From Pseudomonadota bacterium (GTDB lineage: Bacteria > Bdellovibrionota_C > UBA2361 > OMIW01): a DNA stretch of 8,569 nt. Below the pieces are notes generated by a model. That model was not told the DNA's origin. It ran no database searches and saw only the letters and a list, made by a program, of their open reading frames with translations. The stretch is from contig OMIW01000150.1 in assembly GCA_900299205.1 (NCBI GenBank), positions 1-8,569 on the forward strand, in the 5' to 3' direction. Of this stretch, positions 651 to 8,569 are shown piece after piece. A program made the translations under genes and the position numbers. The stretch's first letter is position 1. Each line of letters begins with the position of its first letter.

Positions 651-1853
651 TCAGCTCCACCCCGGCTTGATGGGCAACGAATCGGGATATTTATGTCCCG
701 CAAATTCAGTTATCTGCTCAAGGTAAGCAAGAAGAACATCTGGGTCTCTATTCTTGGAGATGACCCCCCGCAGCCCTAACCTCAGGAGTGATGCCTCGAG
801 CTGATCATCGTTCTCGTTGCTGAGCACGACGATCTGGTGGGGTTCGATAATACCGCTTGAGAGAAGCTTCTCGACGGTGTCTTGTCCCACAGAGTCGGTT
901 ACGTTGAGATCGCTCACGACAGCGTGGGGCAGTGTCTTGAGCTCAAGGTGGTTCAGTGCCTCGGCGATTGAAGAGCAAGTATCAACCATGTAGTGGCTCG
1001 CCCTCAGAACCTCCGATACTATATTGGAAAATGAGGGATCGTCCTCGATAAGGAGGATGCTTTTTTCGTTGGCCAGGGTCGAGTTTGGTCTGCCATGCAC
1101 CTGGGTCGATTCCTCTGTCAATATGGCAAGGGAGTATTTGTCGGCGGCTATCGCGGACAATTCAATCCGAATTCCGTTGCTGAGAGTAATGTCACTTGGA
1201 GCACTTGCTAGGGTGGTAAGCTCTTCGAGAATATCGCGGTTTGCTGCCTCTACTAAACCACTTAGAGGCTCTGCGTCGGGAAGGGTGAAGTGATATGCAA
1301 GCCCTCTCGATGTCGCGGTGAGCGAGACAGATGAAAGACCAAAGCTGATGCCTTCATCGATTATTAGTTCAAGGATTGTCCTGAGTTTTTCGCTCGGCTG
1401 AGAGAAGGTAGGAGAAGTGTTGGTAAGGGCGGGGACCGCCGGAGGACGCTCTTCAAACTTTTGCAACGTCTCCCAAGTCACGATGACGACATTATTGTGT
1501 AGGTCGGCGGGAAGAAGATTTCGAAGGCGATATGGGTCGATGCAATACGCTCCTACTACCATTCCGTCGATGATATCGGGGAGTGCGCCATGACGGAGAT
1601 AGTCAGCATCCAACGGGCTCTCTAAGGCTTCCCGATGCACGGAAGGGGCAAAAGGAAGCCCGATACGGCCCGCGAGGTCGGTAAGAAATTCTTCTTCAGT
1701 GAAACCGAGAAGCCGGGCAGCGCAGGCGAATATCTCCCGAGAATCGCCTCCACACGCGATGAGTCGTTTGGCCTGAGTGGCCGATAGATAGTCAGGAATA
1801 AGCTCAGAGGTTGAGGGGAGCGACGAGCGTTTTTTTCGAGTCAACAAATTCAC
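651..1853 (-). CDS. GspE-N-like region fused to a CheY-like receiver domain; putative Tad pilus regulator
   Basis: This 400-residue protein starts with GTG, chosen because the GTG overlaps the tadE stop (GTGA) and has AAGGGAG nine bases upstream. Residues about 20-135 resemble the N-terminal domain of type II secretion/type IV pilus ATPases (GFTEEEFLTDLAGRIGLPF, then VVGAYCIDPYRLRNLLP). Residues about 155-248 loosely follow the second N-terminal domain of those ATPases, but no Walker motif follows. Residues 264-382 form a full receiver domain: acidic E270-D271-D272, phospho-acceptor Asp315 (VVSDLNV), Ser345 (VVLSNE) and Lys367 (GVISKN) are all present, so phosphorylation should be possible. 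There is no DNA-binding output domain. Family knowledge: Tad loci often carry TadZ/CpaE, an atypical receiver fused to a MinD-like ATPase; that protein is absent here and this one may fill its localising or regulatory role. The receiver call is strong, the GspE-N call moderate, and the role in pilus control is inferred from position. Confidence 0.85.
   Translation of the reverse strand: MNLLTRKKRSSLPSTSELIPDYLSATQAKRLIACGGDSREIFACAARLLGFTEEEFLTDLAGRIGLPFAPSVHREALESPLDADYLRHGALPDIIDGMVVGAYCIDPYRLRNLLPADLHNNVVIVTWETLQKFEERPPAVPALTNTSPTFSQPSEKLRTILELIIDEGISFGLSSVSLTATSRGLAYHFTLPDAEPLSGLVEAANRDILEELTTLASAPSDITLSNGIRIELSAIAADKYSLAILTEESTQVHGRPNSTLANEKSILLIEDDPSFSNIVSEVLRASHYMVDTCSSIAEALNHLELKTLPHAVVSDLNVTDSVGQDTVEKLLSSGIIEPHQIVVLSNENDDQLEASLLRLGLRGVISKNRDPDVLLAYLEQITEFAGHKYPDSLPIKPGWS
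655..661 (-). promoter_or_regulatory. Ribosome binding site of the left-edge gene
   Basis: The minus strand reads GGTGGAG five bases before ATG at 649. The site lies inside the last codons of the receiver gene. It is what fixes the start of the left-edge reading frame and argues that the frame is translated. Confidence 0.6.
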
Positions 1854-2566
1854 AACTGGAAACTCCCTTGAGAGAAGCCAAAAAAATGAGTGGAATACGA
1901 CATCGTTAAAATTCCCGCCTGCTGCCGAAGAGGAATGATGACATCATAAATAATCGAGCGAGGGGCAACCCGGAGTATGTCAAATTTCGTGAACGAATCG
2001 GTTTTAAGATTTACTCTGATCCTCAGAACAATGGGTGGCGGAGCCGAGTTGTCCCCGAGCGTGATGCCGGCGAGCACTTGATGAAGTCGGGGAGCTGAGA
2101 GAGAGGGGAATGTAGTAGCTCCGATCGGATCCCCTACCAGTCGCTGATGCCACCTCCCGACTGAGAGTTCATTTGCTGTGCCTGCAACCTGAATATATCC
2201 GACCTGTATCGTGAGATCGTCGGGACCTATCGCCATTAGCTCCGATGACAGGAGCTGATTCAGGGAATCCGCAGCATTATCAATTTCTCGTTGTAGTGGT
2301 AACTCGCTCAACTCGTAACCAACGGTGCCGTTTGTTGTCGTTATTCTATAGGGCACCGTCCCTACCTTCGCGGCATTCGAGTAGATTGCGTGCTCAATCG
2401 TCTGACGGTTGAGCAGGAATACAAAGAGAGAAATCGTGGCGAGCAGTATTGTCACAAATAAAATAAGACACAGGGCGGTCTCCAGAATGATCATTCCCCC
2501 GCATCGGTTAACCCGAAATCGCTTTAAGGCGGCACCTCCGGTCACGTGGGTATTTTGGGGCCTCAT
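1850..2566 (-). CDS. tadE: TadE-like pseudopilin
   Basis: This 238-residue protein has the TadE pattern. A basic N-terminus ends in Gly23-Gly24 and is followed by MIILETALCLILFVTILLA. Glu29 is the fifth residue after Gly24, as expected if a prepilin peptidase cuts after that glycine. The hydrophobic helix spans about residues 25-52. The rest (55-238) is predicted to lie outside the membrane and has short beta-like segments (LTIQVGYIQV, IVLRIRVNL) and a Gly/Ser/Phe end. In characterised Tad systems TadE is a processed pseudopilin needed for pilus formation. The ATG overlaps the tadG stop (ATGA) with a GGTGAT site six bases upstream. At 238 residues it is somewhat longer than many TadE proteins. 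The family is clear from the N-terminus; the body is divergent. Confidence 0.8.
   Translation of the reverse strand: MRPQNTHVTGGAALKRFRVNRCGGMIILETALCLILFVTILLATISLFVFLLNRQTIEHAIYSNAAKVGTVPYRITTTNGTVGYELSELPLQREIDNAADSLNQLLSSELMAIGPDDLTIQVGYIQVAGTANELSVGRWHQRLVGDPIGATTFPSLSAPRLHQVLAGITLGDNSAPPPIVLRIRVNLKTDSFTKFDILRVAPRSIIYDVIIPLRQQAGILTMSYSTHFFGFSQGSFQL
1863..1869 (-). promoter_or_regulatory. Ribosome binding site supporting a GTG start
   Basis: The minus strand reads AAGGGAG nine bases before GTG at 1853, within the 3' end of tadE. It decides for the GTG codon, which also overlaps the tadE TGA. Confidence 0.6.
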
Positions 2567-3948
2567 TTTGATATCACCACTGGTTTTCGAAGATGAGTGA
2601 GAAAAGGAGCAAGGGATTGTTCGAGATCGTCAGCTCCCCGCGTCATGAGAAGAGAGAGTTGCACGTGAGGGCGAGAGATTGACGAGAGATATGAATTAAA
2701 GTCACCACCCTCTTCTATGGTCACCCCAGTGTTATTCTGAAAAAGAATGATCGGAATGTGAATGATTGCATTTGCAAGAACGGCTTCTCTATCAAGAGTC
2801 GCAACCATCGCAGACAGGGCATCGGTGGTTTTTTTGTCGGGGAATCGAACCATGTCAATTCGAGGAATATCTCCAGCAAAAATGAGCCCGACCAGCGAAG
2901 TGGCTCCAGTGACGGAGACGGCCTTTTCTCCCTGTCCCAGACTCTCGAGGAGGGACATTCCGACTGATTGTATCGCGGCAATCGAATCGACTTCATCCTC
3001 TTCGCGTGCACTCTGGGACCATATTACCTCCTCCGCCGAGAGGAAAGGCGCATAGTTCTGATTAAATGACCGGGAGGTTAGATCAACGATTCGTTCTCCA
3101 GAGGGTGAGATGCCGGCTCCTATGTTAGGAAAACGGTAAGGCGACTCCGGTCGGTAAAGCGTTTCGTAAAGAGCGGCAGCTGCACAATCGGAATTGCTTC
3201 GGGTGGCGCCCCGGTATTCGACCCATTGGGGTTTTGTGTCAAGCAAGCCCTTTATTATTGAAAGGTGAGGATTCGTCCGATTTGAGTCTGTCATCGAGGA
3301 GGGGAAGATTGCGGCTCCTACTCGGTAGCTCGGTACCTTTGAAAGAGACGTATACGTCGCGGCGGCAATCCGTTTGAGAGGAAGGAGCGTATCATTAAAG
3401 CATGCCTGCGTTCGCTGAATAGCTCCGATCAGCGCCCGACCGGTATCAATGGTATCGCCGAGGAAAAGGCCCGCCGGAAGCAATCCTGCCGACGAGGCCC
3501 ACTTCGCATCCGTTCCTCGAGGTGCAGTGTAAAAGCTGGTATCGAGAGCAATAATGATGGACATCGGGGGAATGATAACTTTCGCGTGGGCGGTTGCTTT
3601 GATAGGACGCTTTAAGCCGAAATATCCGAGGAAAAAACCGCTCTTTGACTCCGAAACGGTCGCCTCGATAGAGTCAGGTCTTACGCGCAGTAACGTGTCT
3701 TGCTCCGGAAATGATGATGCGCTCTCAAAGGCACTCCGAGCTTTGATAACGTTCGGGAGGTGTTGTGCTGAGGCCACCACCAAAGTATCGAGCTTGGTTT
3801 GAGCTGAATTGGCGGCGAGAGACATTGTTGTCACCTCGAGTATGAGACTGAGGGCGAGAAACAGGACGGGCAAAAGGAACGTCAGAAAGAGGACCATTCC
3901 GCCAAATGAGTTTCTATGAAAATCTTTCGAGGTCGGTTCGTTTTTCAT
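2563..3948 (-). CDS. tadG: TadG-like pilus assembly protein with VWA-like segment
   Basis: This 461-residue protein has a short basic N-terminus (NSFGG) and one membrane helix at about 18-38. A linker-like part (40-60, NSAQTKLDTLVVASA) is typical of the Tad-associated N-terminal domain. After a beta-rich stretch (KATAHAKVIIPP) comes a VWA-like first strand and loop, IIIALDTSFY at 131-140. The MIDAS motif DxSxS is incomplete: D136 and S138 are present but Tyr140 replaces the second Ser, so metal binding may be weakened. A later segment (YRVGAAIFPSS) fits another VWA strand. Family knowledge: TadG proteins sit at the pilus base or tip and contribute to assembly and adhesion. The ATG overlaps the tadC stop (ATGA) with GGTGAT five bases before it. 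Assignment rests on architecture and neighbours; the remaining two thirds is not recognisable by eye. Confidence 0.75.
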   Translation of the reverse strand: MKNEPTSKDFHRNSFGGMVLFLTFLLPVLFLALSLILEVTTMSLAANSAQTKLDTLVVASAQHLPNVIKARSAFESASSFPEQDTLLRVRPDSIEATVSESKSGFFLGYFGLKRPIKATAHAKVIIPPMSIIIALDTSFYTAPRGTDAKWASSAGLLPAGLFLGDTIDTGRALIGAIQRTQACFNDTLLPLKRIAAATYTSLSKVPSYRVGAAIFPSSMTDSNRTNPHLSIIKGLLDTKPQWVEYRGATRSNSDCAAAALYETLYRPESPYRFPNIGAGISPSGERIVDLTSRSFNQNYAPFLSAEEVIWSQSAREEDEVDSIAAIQSVGMSLLESLGQGEKAVSVTGATSLVGLIFAGDIPRIDMVRFPDKKTTDALSAMVATLDREAVLANAIIHIPIILFQNNTGVTIEEGGDFNSYLSSISRPHVQLSLLMTRGADDLEQSLAPFLTHLRKPVVISK

Positions 3949-4805
3949 GATTTATCACCAGAGGAATTGAGTCTCGGATGAGTTTGAGAGCCATCGATCT
4001 TTTCAGATTGAGCGGCAGTGACGACCCCGATGATGGGGCCTGTCAGGAATATGATCAGCAAACCGAGGAACGTGCAGAGAAGCGGGGCAGTTGCCTTGAT
4101 TGGCATGACCGCAATCTCCTCCTCGATTGTCTGCTCATAGGTTACCTGGGTGGCGTCCGCGAGCTCGCGAAGGGGAAAGGTGAGGTCTCCTCCCCGGGAG
4201 TGGGCGACCTTGAGATGGAGGAGGACGTGCTTTAGCGGGATGCTGCGCGAAGCGGAAGCAACCTGTTCAAGCGCCGCCTCAACTGTCGCGCCGCCTTCGA
4301 TGAGCAGCACCACCTGCTGAAATGCCCGCGATGCAGGGTTCGGTAGTTCCGGTGTTGTGGATACAACCTGGAGTGCAGGGACGACATCGAGACCTGACTG
4401 AATCGCAATCAATAATTTCTCGAGTGTCATAGGAAGATTCAGGAGCACCCCTTTTTCCTCGTCGGGAGCCGCTGAATTAATGATGACTCTTCCCGCGATG
4501 TATCCCGCTGAGATCCCGATTGCAATGGTCGCGAAAGCCATATCAGGAAAGAACGCTGCGCCGATGAATCCTGCAATAATTCCTCCGAATGTGAGAAGAG
4601 ATGCTGTCCTCTCAGACTGAGTCTTGGCGGAGAGTTCGATATCTCCCGAAAAATCGGTGCAATCTATCGATTCGGCTTTTTGGTCGAGAGCTGCAATCGT
4701 CCCAACGAGTATCAAGCGAGAGTTTGCAACGAGACGTCGAGTTACGATGGTACCGATGGTCCCAGCCGCTCCAACGAGAAGCACCGTCAAAATGAGTTCA
4801 TTCAT
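3945..4805 (-). CDS. tadC: Tad pilus inner-membrane platform protein TadC
   Basis: This 286-residue polytopic protein has a type II secretion F-like (T2SSF) domain. It has an N-terminal helix (residues about 3-22), two close hydrophobic segments (about 70-110), a cytoplasmic four-helix part at about 120-235, and a final helix at about 238-263. Typical family segments are LPMTLEKLLIAIQSGLDVVPAL, the Gly-rich turn at about 170-180, and LREL followed by a conserved Glu-rich stretch (QTIEEEIAVMPIKA). TadC works with TadB as the membrane platform on which the ATPase acts. The order cpaF-tadB-tadC is the standard Tad order. The ATG overlaps the tadB stop (ATGA) and GAGGAG lies six bases upstream. 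The tail after the last helix is short and polar. Confidence 0.9.
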   Translation of the reverse strand: MNELILTVLLVGAAGTIGTIVTRRLVANSRLILVGTIAALDQKAESIDCTDFSGDIELSAKTQSERTASLLTFGGIIAGFIGAAFFPDMAFATIAIGISAGYIAGRVIINSAAPDEEKGVLLNLPMTLEKLLIAIQSGLDVVPALQVVSTTPELPNPASRAFQQVVLLIEGGATVEAALEQVASASRSIPLKHVLLHLKVAHSRGGDLTFPLRELADATQVTYEQTIEEEIAVMPIKATAPLLCTFLGLLIIFLTGPIIGVVTAAQSEKIDGSQTHPRLNSSGDKS

Positions 4806-5476
4806 ACGCGACTCCTCGTCAACATGAGAAGCCAGGTGATTCCAATTATTAAAAACGTACCACCAAGTAGGTAAGCGATCCCTCCGAATGGATGAATCAC
4901 CGCCTGCAGAACCTGGTCGCGTGCGGTGAATAGCTGAAAGATTATGATACTGATTGCTGATGCGACTATTCCAAAGGCTGACAATCGCTGCATCGCGACG
5001 GCCCCCCGAGCTCGTTGGCGGAATGCTTGACGTCGTCGGGTAATCCGGGCAAGGCGCTCCAAAGATGGACCGATGGGTCCTCCCTCACGCATTGCAATAG
5101 AGAGAGTTGCTCGAAAAAGGGGAAGATCGGGATGAGCGACTTTCTCAGCAAAGCGCTCAAGAGCCTCGAGTTCAGGTTCTCCAGATCGGATAAGAGCCTC
5201 CGTTTTCGCAATTTCATGATGAACAGGGCTCGATTCCGGAAATACCTCTCGAGTCGTCAGCATCGCAGCGAGAGGGTCAAGTCCTGCTCGCACTGATGAA
5301 GCAAGAGAGAGTAAGAAGGTAGGATAGTCTCGTTCAAAAGCCAGCGCCTGTTTCTTGTTGCCGGCTACCTTTTCCCTCGGTTTGAAATCTTCACAATCTG
5401 CCCATCGACCGGTTGACCTCGGCATTAAACGATCAACCCGCGAGAGCGCCCTATGATGGAATAGTTTTGTAATCAT
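4802..5476 (-). CDS. tadB: Tad pilus inner-membrane platform protein TadB, short form
   Basis: This 224-residue protein carries the T2SSF domain at about residues 50-180 (YPTFLLSLASSVRAGLDPLA, AMREGGPIGPSLERLA, RRRQAFRQRARGAVAMQRLSA), followed by two membrane helices at about 166-183 and 197-218. These are hallmarks of TadB. The family is usually close to 300 residues with additional hydrophobic helices at the N-terminus; here the first 50 residues are polar and basic with no helix, so the N-terminal membrane part is missing. The start is secure: ATG overlaps the cpaF stop (ATGA) and GGAGG lies five bases before it. The C-terminus of CpaF does not supply the missing helices. The protein pairs with TadC and probably contacts CpaF. 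Confidence 0.88.
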   Translation of the reverse strand: MITKLFHHRALSRVDRLMPRSTGRWADCEDFKPREKVAGNKKQALAFERDYPTFLLSLASSVRAGLDPLAAMLTTREVFPESSPVHHEIAKTEALIRSGEPELEALERFAEKVAHPDLPLFRATLSIAMREGGPIGPSLERLARITRRRQAFRQRARGAVAMQRLSAFGIVASAISIIIFQLFTARDQVLQAVIHPFGGIAYLLGGTFLIIGITWLLMLTRSRV

Positions 5477-6861
5477 GCAACCCTCCGATGAGGCGACGAT
5501 GAGAAGGTCGATGCTGAAGATGAAGTTGCGGAGGGCGTACCAGTACGAGGCCTTGTAGGGCTGATTTGAAGCGAATCGGGGAGTGAGCTCAGAACGAGTG
5601 CGGGTTCCAAAACCTCGCGGTGGTAGCTTACCTTATTAGGTATGCGCCATTCGCCCGTTTGACCTGGTTTATATTGGAATATGACCCGATGACGAATTGT
5701 GCCATCGGCTGCGGCTCCAAGCTCCCGAACTTCGAAGACCCGTCTCTTTCCGGATATCGGGCATACTCCGAGATGTACAACCGCATGAACGGCGCCCGCT
5801 ATCTGTTCGTGAATCGTCTGTCGTGATACTCCCGGTTGAGCTCTCCCGAGAAATAGCTCAAGCCGCGCAATCCCCTCCTGTGCGCTTCGTCCATGGACCG
5901 TCGAGAGCCCTGGATGGCCTGAGGCGCACACATCAATAAATGATTCAGCGGCCTCGGCGTCTCGGATCTCGCCGAGAATGATCCGATTCATCGCCATCCG
6001 CATCCCCGCTCGGATACAGGCACTGGGTGCCACCTTTCCGATCCCCTCGGCATTGTCTTCACGGGTCGACAGGTATCGAACGTGGGGGTGCTCTATCCGA
6101 ATCTCTGGCGTATCCTCAATCACAAGGACCGAATCGTGAGTTGGAATTGAGCCAGCAATGGCACGGGCAAGGGTTGTTTTACCGGTGCCGACTTCCCCTA
6201 CGAGCAGAATGGTTCGTCCTTGCTGACCGAATATCCTGAAGTATTCAATGATGGGCCCGGGTGCCAGCTCTGCATTAGCGAGCATGTCAAGGGATATGGT
6301 ATCGAAGCGGTTCACCCGAATGGTAAGGTAGGGTCCTCCCGAGCAGAGTGAGCGATGAACTGCGTGGATCCGAACCAATCCGCACACCATCCCATCCGCT
6401 ATCGGTTGCTTGGTTGAATAGGTGGTGCCAGCTTTTATCAATAACTTTTCAACGTACGCCTCGTAGCTCTGCTGAGAGGGAAATCGAACATCGGTCGGAA
6501 AGTTTTTTCTGCCGATTTGGATCGAGACCTTAGAGTAGTCATGGACAATGATATCAGAGATGGTGGGCTCATCTATAAGCGATTGTAGGAGTCCGAAGGG
6601 ACGAGATTCCTGTTCAGCTATCGATAGAAGTTCCGTTACTTCGCTCTGAGTTAGTTCGAACCCGTATGACTCACCGATGGAACGCAGAAGCCTCTCGCGC
6701 TCCCGAGGATGCATTTCATCGAGAGTAATGCCATGAATCTTGGCGCGAAATTGGTCAAGGATAGTCATCAATGCGGGGTATAGGCCTCCACCATTAACCG
6801 AGGAGGTCGGAGGCGTGGCAGGGGTTACGGGCAACTGGAATGGGGAATCAAACCTGTTCAT
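5473..6861 (-). CDS. cpaF: Tad pilus assembly ATPase CpaF/TadA
   Basis: This 462-residue member of the VirB11/CpaF secretion-ATPase family powers pilus polymerisation at the cytoplasmic membrane. The N-terminal domain spans about residues 25-205 (LLQSLIDEPTISDIIVHDY is the family signature before the ATPase core). The core holds Walker A GEVGTGKT (222-229), the Asp box VIEDTPEI (247-254), Walker B-like ILGEIRDAE (295-303) and the His box SGHPGLSTVHGRS (314-326). All catalytic landmarks are present. The last 30 residues are a Ser/Thr/Pro-rich basic tail with no clear role. The ATG at 6861 is the only usual start codon between the stop of cpaB and the conserved region in this frame. It lacks a ribosome site at normal distance but is overlapped (ATGA) by the stop of a four-codon reading frame. 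The stop overlaps tadB. Confidence 0.95.
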   Translation of the reverse strand: MNRFDSPFQLPVTPATPPTSSVNGGGLYPALMTILDQFRAKIHGITLDEMHPRERERLLRSIGESYGFELTQSEVTELLSIAEQESRPFGLLQSLIDEPTISDIIVHDYSKVSIQIGRKNFPTDVRFPSQQSYEAYVEKLLIKAGTTYSTKQPIADGMVCGLVRIHAVHRSLCSGGPYLTIRVNRFDTISLDMLANAELAPGPIIEYFRIFGQQGRTILLVGEVGTGKTTLARAIAGSIPTHDSVLVIEDTPEIRIEHPHVRYLSTREDNAEGIGKVAPSACIRAGMRMAMNRIILGEIRDAEAAESFIDVCASGHPGLSTVHGRSAQEGIARLELFLGRAQPGVSRQTIHEQIAGAVHAVVHLGVCPISGKRRVFEVRELGAAADGTIRHRVIFQYKPGQTGEWRIPNKVSYHREVLEPALVLSSLPDSLQISPTRPRTGTPSATSSSASTFSSSPHRRVA

Positions 6862-6936: not shown

Positions 6937-7824
6937 TTACTCCCCCCGCGTAACAGAGAAGGACGAGGGCAGCGCATCGGCTTTCACCCATACCCCGTCT
7001 CGAAGAGCGAACTGTCGAGAATCTCCTTTGACGGAGATAAATCCCGATATCTTCCCTCCGTCCACTACAGCCTTTGGTGATCGCTTCAGTCTGTCGGCAG
7101 CAATAACCGGGTCAGTCCACGATTCGATGTCCTCGCCGTTACGAAGTGCAAATGCAATCTTGCCGAGGGGGATCGCCATGTTAATTGAGAGACACTGCTC
7201 CTGAGTGACGAGGATAGTCACGGTACTGGGGACCATCGGTGCATCGCCGGATCCCACGGGCGCGGTTGAACGCTCTGCTGATAGCACCCGTACTCGCTCC
7301 GCTATCACCGAGGTTTGGGCGGGGGTCACCAGCAGCACGTCAACCACCGCACCCGAGCCAGCCCACCCCTCAACCGCGCTCGTCGCATCTACCCGTAGTG
7401 TCATTGCCCGCATCGCGGGGGGGATCTGCTTTTCGATCGGATTGGTTCGAGGATCGGTGAAGGAGAAGTTCTCACGGAAGAGTGGCAGGTGCGCGGGAAG
7501 CTGAGCTATCGCCACGGCTCCTGAAAGCGAGTTGATATCGGTCACTGCATTCCCTGGAACCTGATGCTTAGGATACCGGATTCGTTGAAACATTATCTTC
7601 CCGACAGCGGTTCCCGCTGGAACCGGTTCAGTCGGTACCGGTAGTTCAACTGAATCGTACTCAGCGACGGTTATCGTCCGGGCAACTTTGGGTGGGGGGG
7701 CTCGGAGATGCTGCACCGCGAGCGGGGCCATCCCGACCACGCCTCCGAGAATGAACACCCACACGAACCCACTTTTTCCGCGAGATGGGCTCTTTCCCTT
7801 CGAGGAACTGACACGTCTAGCCAT
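6937..7824 (-). CDS. cpaB: Flp pilus assembly protein CpaB/RcpC
   Basis: This 295-residue protein has a basic Ser/Lys/Arg-rich N-terminus (1-19) and one membrane helix (about 20-37), so the bulk is periplasmic. Residues about 60-125 form an SAF domain (VPTEPVPAGTAVGKIMF through ALPAHLP-like LPAHLPLFRENF). Residues about 134-230 match the RcpC domain (IPPAMRAMTLRVDATSA, GSGAVVDVLLVTP, ERVRVLSAE, then a late strand IAFALRNGED). In Tad systems CpaB/RcpC is associated with the outer-membrane channel and helps export or stabilise the pilus. The site AAGGCGG lies about nine bases before the ATG. The gene follows the pilin after 67 bases and precedes cpaF in the usual order. Its TAA is in the same frame as cpaF, with 25 sense codons between them. 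Confidence 0.9.
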   Translation of the reverse strand: MARRVSSSKGKSPSRGKSGFVWVFILGGVVGMAPLAVQHLRAPPPKVARTITVAEYDSVELPVPTEPVPAGTAVGKIMFQRIRYPKHQVPGNAVTDINSLSGAVAIAQLPAHLPLFRENFSFTDPRTNPIEKQIPPAMRAMTLRVDATSAVEGWAGSGAVVDVLLVTPAQTSVIAERVRVLSAERSTAPVGSGDAPMVPSTVTILVTQEQCLSINMAIPLGKIAFALRNGEDIESWTDPVIAADRLKRSPKAVVDGGKISGFISVKGDSRQFALRDGVWVKADALPSSFSVTRGE

Positions 7825-7891: not shown

Positions 7892-8110
7892 TTAATCCGG
7901 TGCCTTTGAATCAAGCTCGGTCGCTCTTCGGTTCGCAAAATTAGCGATACTGGTAAGCAATCCTTCGAGGCTTCCCCCGACGGCTCGTAACCCCACATAC
8001 AAGACCCCCATCAAAAGGGCCGCACCGGCGGCGTATTCGAGGAGTGTGTATCCCGACTCCCGTCGATTTCTTCGAAGAGCGATCCGTTTTTTAGTTGTCT
8101 CAGGTTCCAT
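7892..8110 (-). CDS. flp: Flp/Fap-type major pilin precursor
   Basis: This 72-residue prepilin has a 20-residue basic leader ending in Gly20 and then YTLLEYAAGAALLMGVLYVG. Glu25 and Tyr26 are residues 5 and 6 of the mature chain, which is the defining Flp motif cut by a TadV/CpaA-type prepilin peptidase after Gly20. The mature pilin would be 52 residues, a usual Flp size. The hydrophobic helix covers about 23-45 and is followed by GGSLEGLLTSIANF, like the GSLSGLF segment of Flp proteins. The soluble tail is short and charged (RRATELDSKAPD). A TAAGGAG ribosome site six bases upstream is the best in the window, as expected for the most abundant subunit. No second flp copy is seen here. Location before cpaB-cpaF-tadB-tadC is the standard arrangement. 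Confidence 0.92.
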   Translation of the reverse strand: MEPETTKKRIALRRNRRESGYTLLEYAAGAALLMGVLYVGLRAVGGSLEGLLTSIANFANRRATELDSKAPD

Positions 8111-8167: not shown

Positions 8168-8569
8168 TTATGTCGGCTTAGGCAGCGGCTGAGATCGAGG
8201 CTTATTGGCTCCCATGCCCGGCGAGGGGAGCTGTTTGGGTCCTGACGGGGGAATATATGAAAGCGCGGGTATCGCAGCGATATCACGGGTACTCGATATG
8301 CTGCGTCTCGTTAGCGAGAGTATCTCGCTAATTCGCCGAAACCCGGTGGTGTTGGCGAGCGTTTTACTGCGCGGGTCTCCATCAAGAAGCTCTACCGTCG
8401 CTGACGTGAGTGCTCGTCGTGTCCTCCTGCATCCGATAGACACCGGTGTTGAAAAACTACCGGGCCAATACGCGACCGGCCGTGAATAGGGAATCGCCAG
8501 GGAGCACCACTGTTCATCGGAAGCTCCAGTCATCTTTGAGAGCTCTGACCTGAGAAGGGATGAGGGAAG
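8168..8569 (-). CDS. Partial protein of unknown function, C-terminal part, upstream of the pilin
   Basis: The frame is open from the window edge to TAA at 8168, giving 133 visible residues. An ATG at 8533 exists, but no good ribosome site precedes it and the frame stays open upstream, so the gene probably begins outside. I do not recognise it. Two cysteines 25 residues apart flank an aromatic/Pro-rich part (IPYSRPVAYWPGSF), which would suit a disulfide in an exported protein. The middle is basic and Ser/Thr-rich (SEILSLTRRSISSTRDI), and the last 40 residues are rich in Pro, Lys and Ser. There is no membrane helix in the visible part. Same strand and short spacing to the pilin suggest it may belong to the pilus operon, for example as a minor component, but this is not shown. 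A plus-strand frame overlaps it, so coding status is likely but not certain. Confidence 0.55.
   Translation of the reverse strand, partial: LPSSLLRSELSKMTGASDEQWCSLAIPYSRPVAYWPGSFSTPVSIGCRRTRRALTSATVELLDGDPRSKTLANTTGFRRISEILSLTRRSISSTRDIAAIPALSYIPPSGPKQLPSPGMGANKPRSQPLPKPT

Follow-up and report, generated by a model that had tools for sequence, protein, structure and literature searches.

What might a protein do that joins the front end of a pilus motor ATPase to an intact two-component receiver, omits the ATPase itself and is encoded within a Tad pilus operon? This question is raised by the window analyzed here, the whole of contig C150 (8569 bases, part of a 2.45-Mb draft genome), in which a minus-strand ORF at 651-1853 encodes a 400-residue protein with the domain order N1-N2-REC, hereafter RECN. 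An original prediction had taken this protein for a regulator that docks on the Tad machine under two-component control, and had linked it to an operon without TadZ. Tad systems rely on a single motor, CpaF, to power both extension and retraction of the pilus, and the control of the switch is unclear (PMC11300603).

Results

On the minus strand, the genes of the window run in the order tadZ, flp, cpaB, cpaF, tadB, tadC, tadG-like, tadE-like, RECN and histidine kinase. The first of these is the C-terminal (3') part of tadZ/cpaE (8168-8569, open at the contig edge; tblastn E 4e-8 against TadZ of relatives), followed by a 72-residue Flp-type prepilin read from the sequence (7892-8110; GYTLLEYAAGAALLMG), which resembles a 74-residue ORF at the same place in locus L038; CpaB/RcpC (6937-7824; PF16976, E 6.7e-13); the CpaF/TadA motor ATPase (5473-6861; PF00437, E 1.6e-26; 51-60% identical to CpaF from the Tad loci of relatives in the same order); the platform proteins TadB (4802-5476; PF00482, E 1.3e-11) and TadC (3945-4805; PF00482, E 2e-10); a TadG-like protein (2563-3948; weak PF13400 match, syntenic with cluster 13 of relatives); and a TadE-like pseudopilin (1850-2566; PF07811, E 6.6e-5). 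RECN begins with a GTG that overlaps the stop of the tadE-like gene upstream by 4 bases, and the next gene (1-649, ATG at 649) starts one base past the RECN stop. Given that neighbors from cpaF onward either overlap by 4 bases or are set apart by one-base gaps, this part of the operon looks like one transcription unit. The gene at 1-649 encodes the N-terminal part (216 residues) of a membrane histidine kinase, recognized by its position and an N-terminal hydrophobic segment; it leaves the contig at "...REIHDL", a probable H-box, with the catalytic part beyond the contig edge. Contig C129 opens (L227:1-255) with an HATPase_c fragment that is cut at its 5' end, has a stop and lacks a receiver; it may be the end of this kinase. 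In most other genomes of the phylum, a further CpaF-like ATPase of about 38% identity is encoded elsewhere, unlinked to RECN in the loci inspected.

The RECN ORF is genuine, and profiles, AF2 modeling and PDB fold searches bear out the predicted architecture of an N1 and a degenerate N2 domain ahead of a receiver, with no ATPase. The MshEN/T2SSE_N-like N1 spans residues about 17-137 (1443-1805), the N2-like domain about 153-242 (1128-1397) and the receiver about 264-386 (696-1064). Pfam detected the receiver alone (PF00072, residues 266-378, E 7e-13), which in VIA-align scored Z about 19 against activated receivers. Every catalytic residue that had been listed for it is in place (E270/D271/D272, D315, S345 and K367), with the codon of the phospho-acceptor D315 at 909-911, so that the domain combines the receiver fold with the acidic pair, phospho-acceptor Asp, Ser/Thr and Lys by which response regulators are recognized; D271, D315 and K367 are retained in 34 of 36 family members despite an overall identity of about 20%. 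Where the ATPase core of a motor would follow, RECN has neither a PF00437 match nor Walker motifs, and the receiver comes directly after N2. Nor did Pfam find a ParA/MinD-type ATPase domain in RECN, a PATAN domain in RECN or its homologues (scan listed up to E 10) or, together with NCBIfam, any DNA-binding or enzymatic output domain in RECN.

The assignment of the N-terminal part drew on an alignment of the window RECN with 20 full-length homologues from relatives (21 sequences). In hhalign, this N-part profile matched 26 PilB/GspE sequences of the same clade with a probability of 91.4 (score 56.5, 153 columns), in a colinear fashion spanning N1 and the start of N2, while control profiles from the same loci (CpaF, TadZ, CpaB, TadB/C and histidine kinase) reached a probability of at most 3.4%, and null scores were at most 24.5 for 150 column shuffles and 20.0 for the reversed alignment. 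Since a fold search with the full-length protein returned receivers only, the N-part was modeled alone (AF2, residues 8-242, alignment of 4 sequences; pLDDT 77.8, pTM 0.53). With this model, the first 18 Foldseek matches in the PDB were chains of PilF, GspE or PilB, at a modest best E of 2.5e-3, and the leading matches of the predicted N1 were to PilF-GSPIIB. VIA-align placed model residues 7-134 on PilF-GSPIIA (Z 8.0, 125 residues, 3.7 A), 10-129 on MshE 5htl (Z 7.6, 114 residues, 4.4 A) and 148-235 on the N2 of PilB 5it5 (Z 7.4, 85 residues, 3.3 A), with further N2 matches to PilB 5oiu (Z 7.1) and GspE 1p9r (Z 6.2); N1 was likewise compared with the N-domains of XpsE and PilB, and almost every match with a Z of 4 or more was a motor ATPase of the PilB/GspE superfamily. 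The single Z values are middling, and what makes them persuasive is that the two halves match two consecutive domains of one family. We conclude that residues about 17-137 and 153-242, as modeled, have the N1 and N2 folds of PilB/GspE-type motors rather than an unrelated fold.

Sequence profiles for N1 gave a fainter signal. Pfam MshEN (PF05157) matched 2 of the 21 sequences unaided, the best at E 1.5e-4 and 22.1 bits, below the curated cut-off of 23.1 bits, and gave a sub-threshold match (E 0.046) in a further family member (L213); no homologue reached the cut-off, and the window RECN had no match to this profile. We therefore term N1 MshEN-like and do not count it as a PF05157 member, the PF05157 fold being seen in the predicted model (Foldseek, VIA-align). 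In an hmmsearch of PDB sequences with the N-profile, an LA-motif protein came first (E 5.8e-4, probably by chance) and PilF followed at E 0.085 and above.

A CpaF origin of N2 was considered and is less likely than a PilB/GspE origin, judging from hhalign (probability 3.4 vs. 91.4) and VIA-align (Z 4.9 vs. 7.4). The better fit of N1/N2 to PilB/GspE (Z about 7-8) than to the N2 of CpaF (Z 4.9), along with PilB/GspE-type ATPases encoded elsewhere in the genome, could mean that RECN targets the motors of type IVa pili or type II secretion as a dominant-negative subunit that enters or poisons their hexamers, and so couples Tad expression to their silencing. We regard this as unlikely, as RECN is, within this phylum, always found in a Tad operon, mostly overlapping Tad genes, and never in pil or gsp loci.

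This placement holds across the phylum of the window, an uncultured group. The N-part profile was positive in 31 of 45 genomes (about 45 being surveyed), and inspection of the loci, which added divergent members missed by the profile, brought RECN to 36 genomes including that of the window. Of 40 resolvable Tad loci, 36 carry RECN, in every case behind the Tad genes, and a few further Tad loci that end at contig edges stand outside the 40; all members found belong to Tad loci within the phylum rather than lying away from pilus genes. RECN was undetected in L207, L208, L210 and L211, Tad loci whose downstream DNA is long enough to show it, hence not all Tad systems of this kind need it. A single-sequence search for related loci returned no matches, and an alignment-based scan recovered 3 orthologues amid mostly unrelated REC proteins; named orthologue records are those of Bdellovibrionales bacterium HKST-UBA25 (L108), an uncultured delta proteobacterium (L118) and Bacterium (L107). 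The first 4 bases of RECN are, in most loci, shared with the end of the Tad gene before it; a kinase gene begins within a few bases of the RECN end, mostly overlapping it, and adjoins RECN in nearly all loci. The expected two-component control is thus well founded, given that the Tad operon encodes an intact receiver and that the very next gene is that of a membrane histidine kinase.

The kinases of relatives at this place have HATPase_c, usually HisKA and usually a receiver of their own, as hybrid kinases do. The last feature would suit a RECN that acts mainly as a phosphate sink or phosphorelay intermediate alongside a hybrid kinase, with its N-domain as an anchor only, a reading we find improbable on two accounts: 1) no HPt domain was found in the kinases scanned; 2) two loci have kept the N-part and the adjacent kinase where the receiver is lost or degenerate, namely L218:5538-6305, which encodes the N-part alone (255 residues, no REC), and L206:5123-6223, in which the N-part is joined to a degenerate receiver lacking its aspartates, the phospho-acceptor included. 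The N-part, which stays in both, is accordingly the constant element of the family.

The claim that the operon shows no TadZ proved wrong. The window carries a truncated tadZ, and a search of the genome's own contigs located the N-terminal part, so that the gene is split over two contig ends, window 8168-8569 and L225:2674-3344 (the end of contig C172, at 12343), with about 100 codons missing between them; the argument from TadZ absence is therefore an artefact of the contig edge that cuts tadZ. Of the RECN loci, 29 extend upstream of cpaB and all 29 carry tadZ, the other seven being cut, and the survey of homologues for Tad loci lacking tadZ yielded none, which refutes the link within the phylum. 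TadZ carries a receiver-like domain (an atypical ARD), a trait it shares with RECN and one that might recommend RECN as a stand-in marking TadZ-less Tad systems; with tadZ in all 29 of these loci and truncated in the window, we effectively dismiss this idea.

As N1 resembles MshEN, we scanned for its c-di-GMP-binding motif. The 24-residue motif, even when relaxed, was present in 0 of 21 RECN homologues; in PilB of the same genomes it was perfect in 4 of 26 and near-complete in the right place in most others, unlike in RECN. Binding of c-di-GMP through the canonical motif is thus unsupported, and the signal to RECN is probably that of the kinase rather than c-di-GMP. A RECN that responds to c-di-GMP through N1 and integrates it with receiver input on the Tad machine would have in its favor the MshEN fold predicted for N1 and the existence of MshEN-REC proteins, of which Bdellovibrio Bd2402 binds c-di-GMP (PMC5013675); integration of c-di-GMP with REC has been suggested for other MshEN-REC proteins, and imperfect MshEN motifs are still able to bind (PMC5013675). 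The homologues, however, lack even a near-complete motif, whereas PilB of the same genomes mostly has one, and we give this reading little credence.

Where RECN came from is suggested by its neighbors in the phylum. Among the PilB/GspE ATPases there, full-length forms that end in a receiver are common (L091-L096 and L100; 615-785 residues), examples being L091:1766-3928 and L092:1828-4170, in which the full T2SSE ATPase is retained. There are also GspE-like remnants with a C-terminal receiver (L103:2375-4012, L104:2443-4014 and L270:727-1896) that have no Walker A and keep a C-terminal remnant of the ATPase region; these are a second non-catalytic derivative, and together the ATPase-REC and Walker-less REC proteins offer a ready evolutionary source for RECN. 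In a tree of receivers (123 columns; four genomes supplied 60 background receivers), those of RECN form one clade (support 99/97) that joins the PilB/GspE-REC receivers (99/95), and just two other receivers fall within this grouping, one being that of the remnant L270; the small number of columns calls for caution, as does the way the ATPase-REC members were obtained, mostly through REC similarity, which favors their nearness to RECN in the tree. As the receivers of RECN cluster with those of motor-REC proteins, ATPase loss from a motor-REC fusion is the simplest history, and on these sequence comparisons RECN probably arose in this way from a full PilB/GspE-REC protein. Derivation of its receiver from that of the adjacent kinase is unsupported, a 99/99 branch separating most of them.

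Discussion

RECN is a response regulator, conserved and dedicated to Tad, whose output derives from a motor. As to what it does, we lean, by a slight margin over even chances, toward a phosphorylation-gated, non-catalytic adaptor or regulator of the Tad machine, descended from a motor-REC fusion, whose N1-N2 output would dock on the motor, the platform or TadZ. In motors, the binding partners of N1 and N2 are proteins of the inner membrane or cytoplasm and the adjacent motor ring, as established for GspE-GspL and PilB-PilZ. We surmise that the adjacent membrane histidine kinase phosphorylates the RECN receiver at D315, and that the phosphorylated receiver would alter the exposure or dimer state of the output, which by prediction and profile comparison consists of N1 and N2 of a PilB/GspE-type motor minus the ATPase core. 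The partner of these domains may then be CpaF, the motor of the Tad system, or else TadZ or the TadB/TadC platform, and docking there could license, place or block pilus extension or retraction without ATP hydrolysis. The adaptor reading is supported by the N1/N2 evidence, the intact receiver, the place in the Tad operon next to a kinase, the receiver tree and the precedent of PATAN-REC proteins. More tentatively, and with somewhat less than even confidence, we postulate that a two-component system controls the Tad pili of this phylum post-translationally and that its response regulator, RECN, is an engine-less motor, a phosphorylation-switched adaptor that engages the Tad machine by replacing or competing with the N-domains of motors.

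Several known proteins come close to RECN. Bd2402 of Bdellovibrio bacteriovorus (PMC5013675) likewise joins MshEN/T2SSE_N to a two-component receiver; compared by description, RECN differs in adding N2, in lacking the c-di-GMP motif and in having a dedicated gene in the Tad operon, paired with that of a kinase. The PilB/GspE-REC proteins of the same phylum share the N1-N2 front and end in a receiver of the clade to which that of RECN belongs, but retain the full T2SSE ATPase that RECN lacks. In Synechocystis, the PATAN-REC proteins (PixG and others) are, like RECN, response regulators without a DNA-binding output; they bind the pilus motor PilB1 and the platform PilC, as PixG does, so that action of a REC protein on a pilus motor has a precedent (PMC12288463), although their output is PATAN in a type IVa pilus and that of RECN comprises motor N-domains in a Tad system. 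TadZ/CpaE is also a Tad protein that combines a receiver-like domain with another module, there a ParA/MinD ATPase; RECN has neither this order nor the ATPase, and the two genes co-occur. The arrangement had been put forward as unfamiliar, and with MshEN-REC (PMC5013675) and PATAN-REC (PMC12288463) already known, it is a variant rather than something unheard of; what is new is its dedication to Tad. In titles, abstracts and passages of the literature searched, mostly outside subscription journals, there was no description of N1-N2-REC in Tad loci.

RECN also illustrates a route by which a motor ATPase can become a motor-REC fusion, lose its engine and end as a regulator. The layout of the genes for RECN, the Tad proteins and the kinase suggests, at the level of sequence, that a signal controls the pilus machine directly. 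If this is true, RECN, gated by phosphorylation, built from the N-domains of a motor and itself a product of the Tad operon, would be a direct and testable candidate for the switch between extension and retraction.
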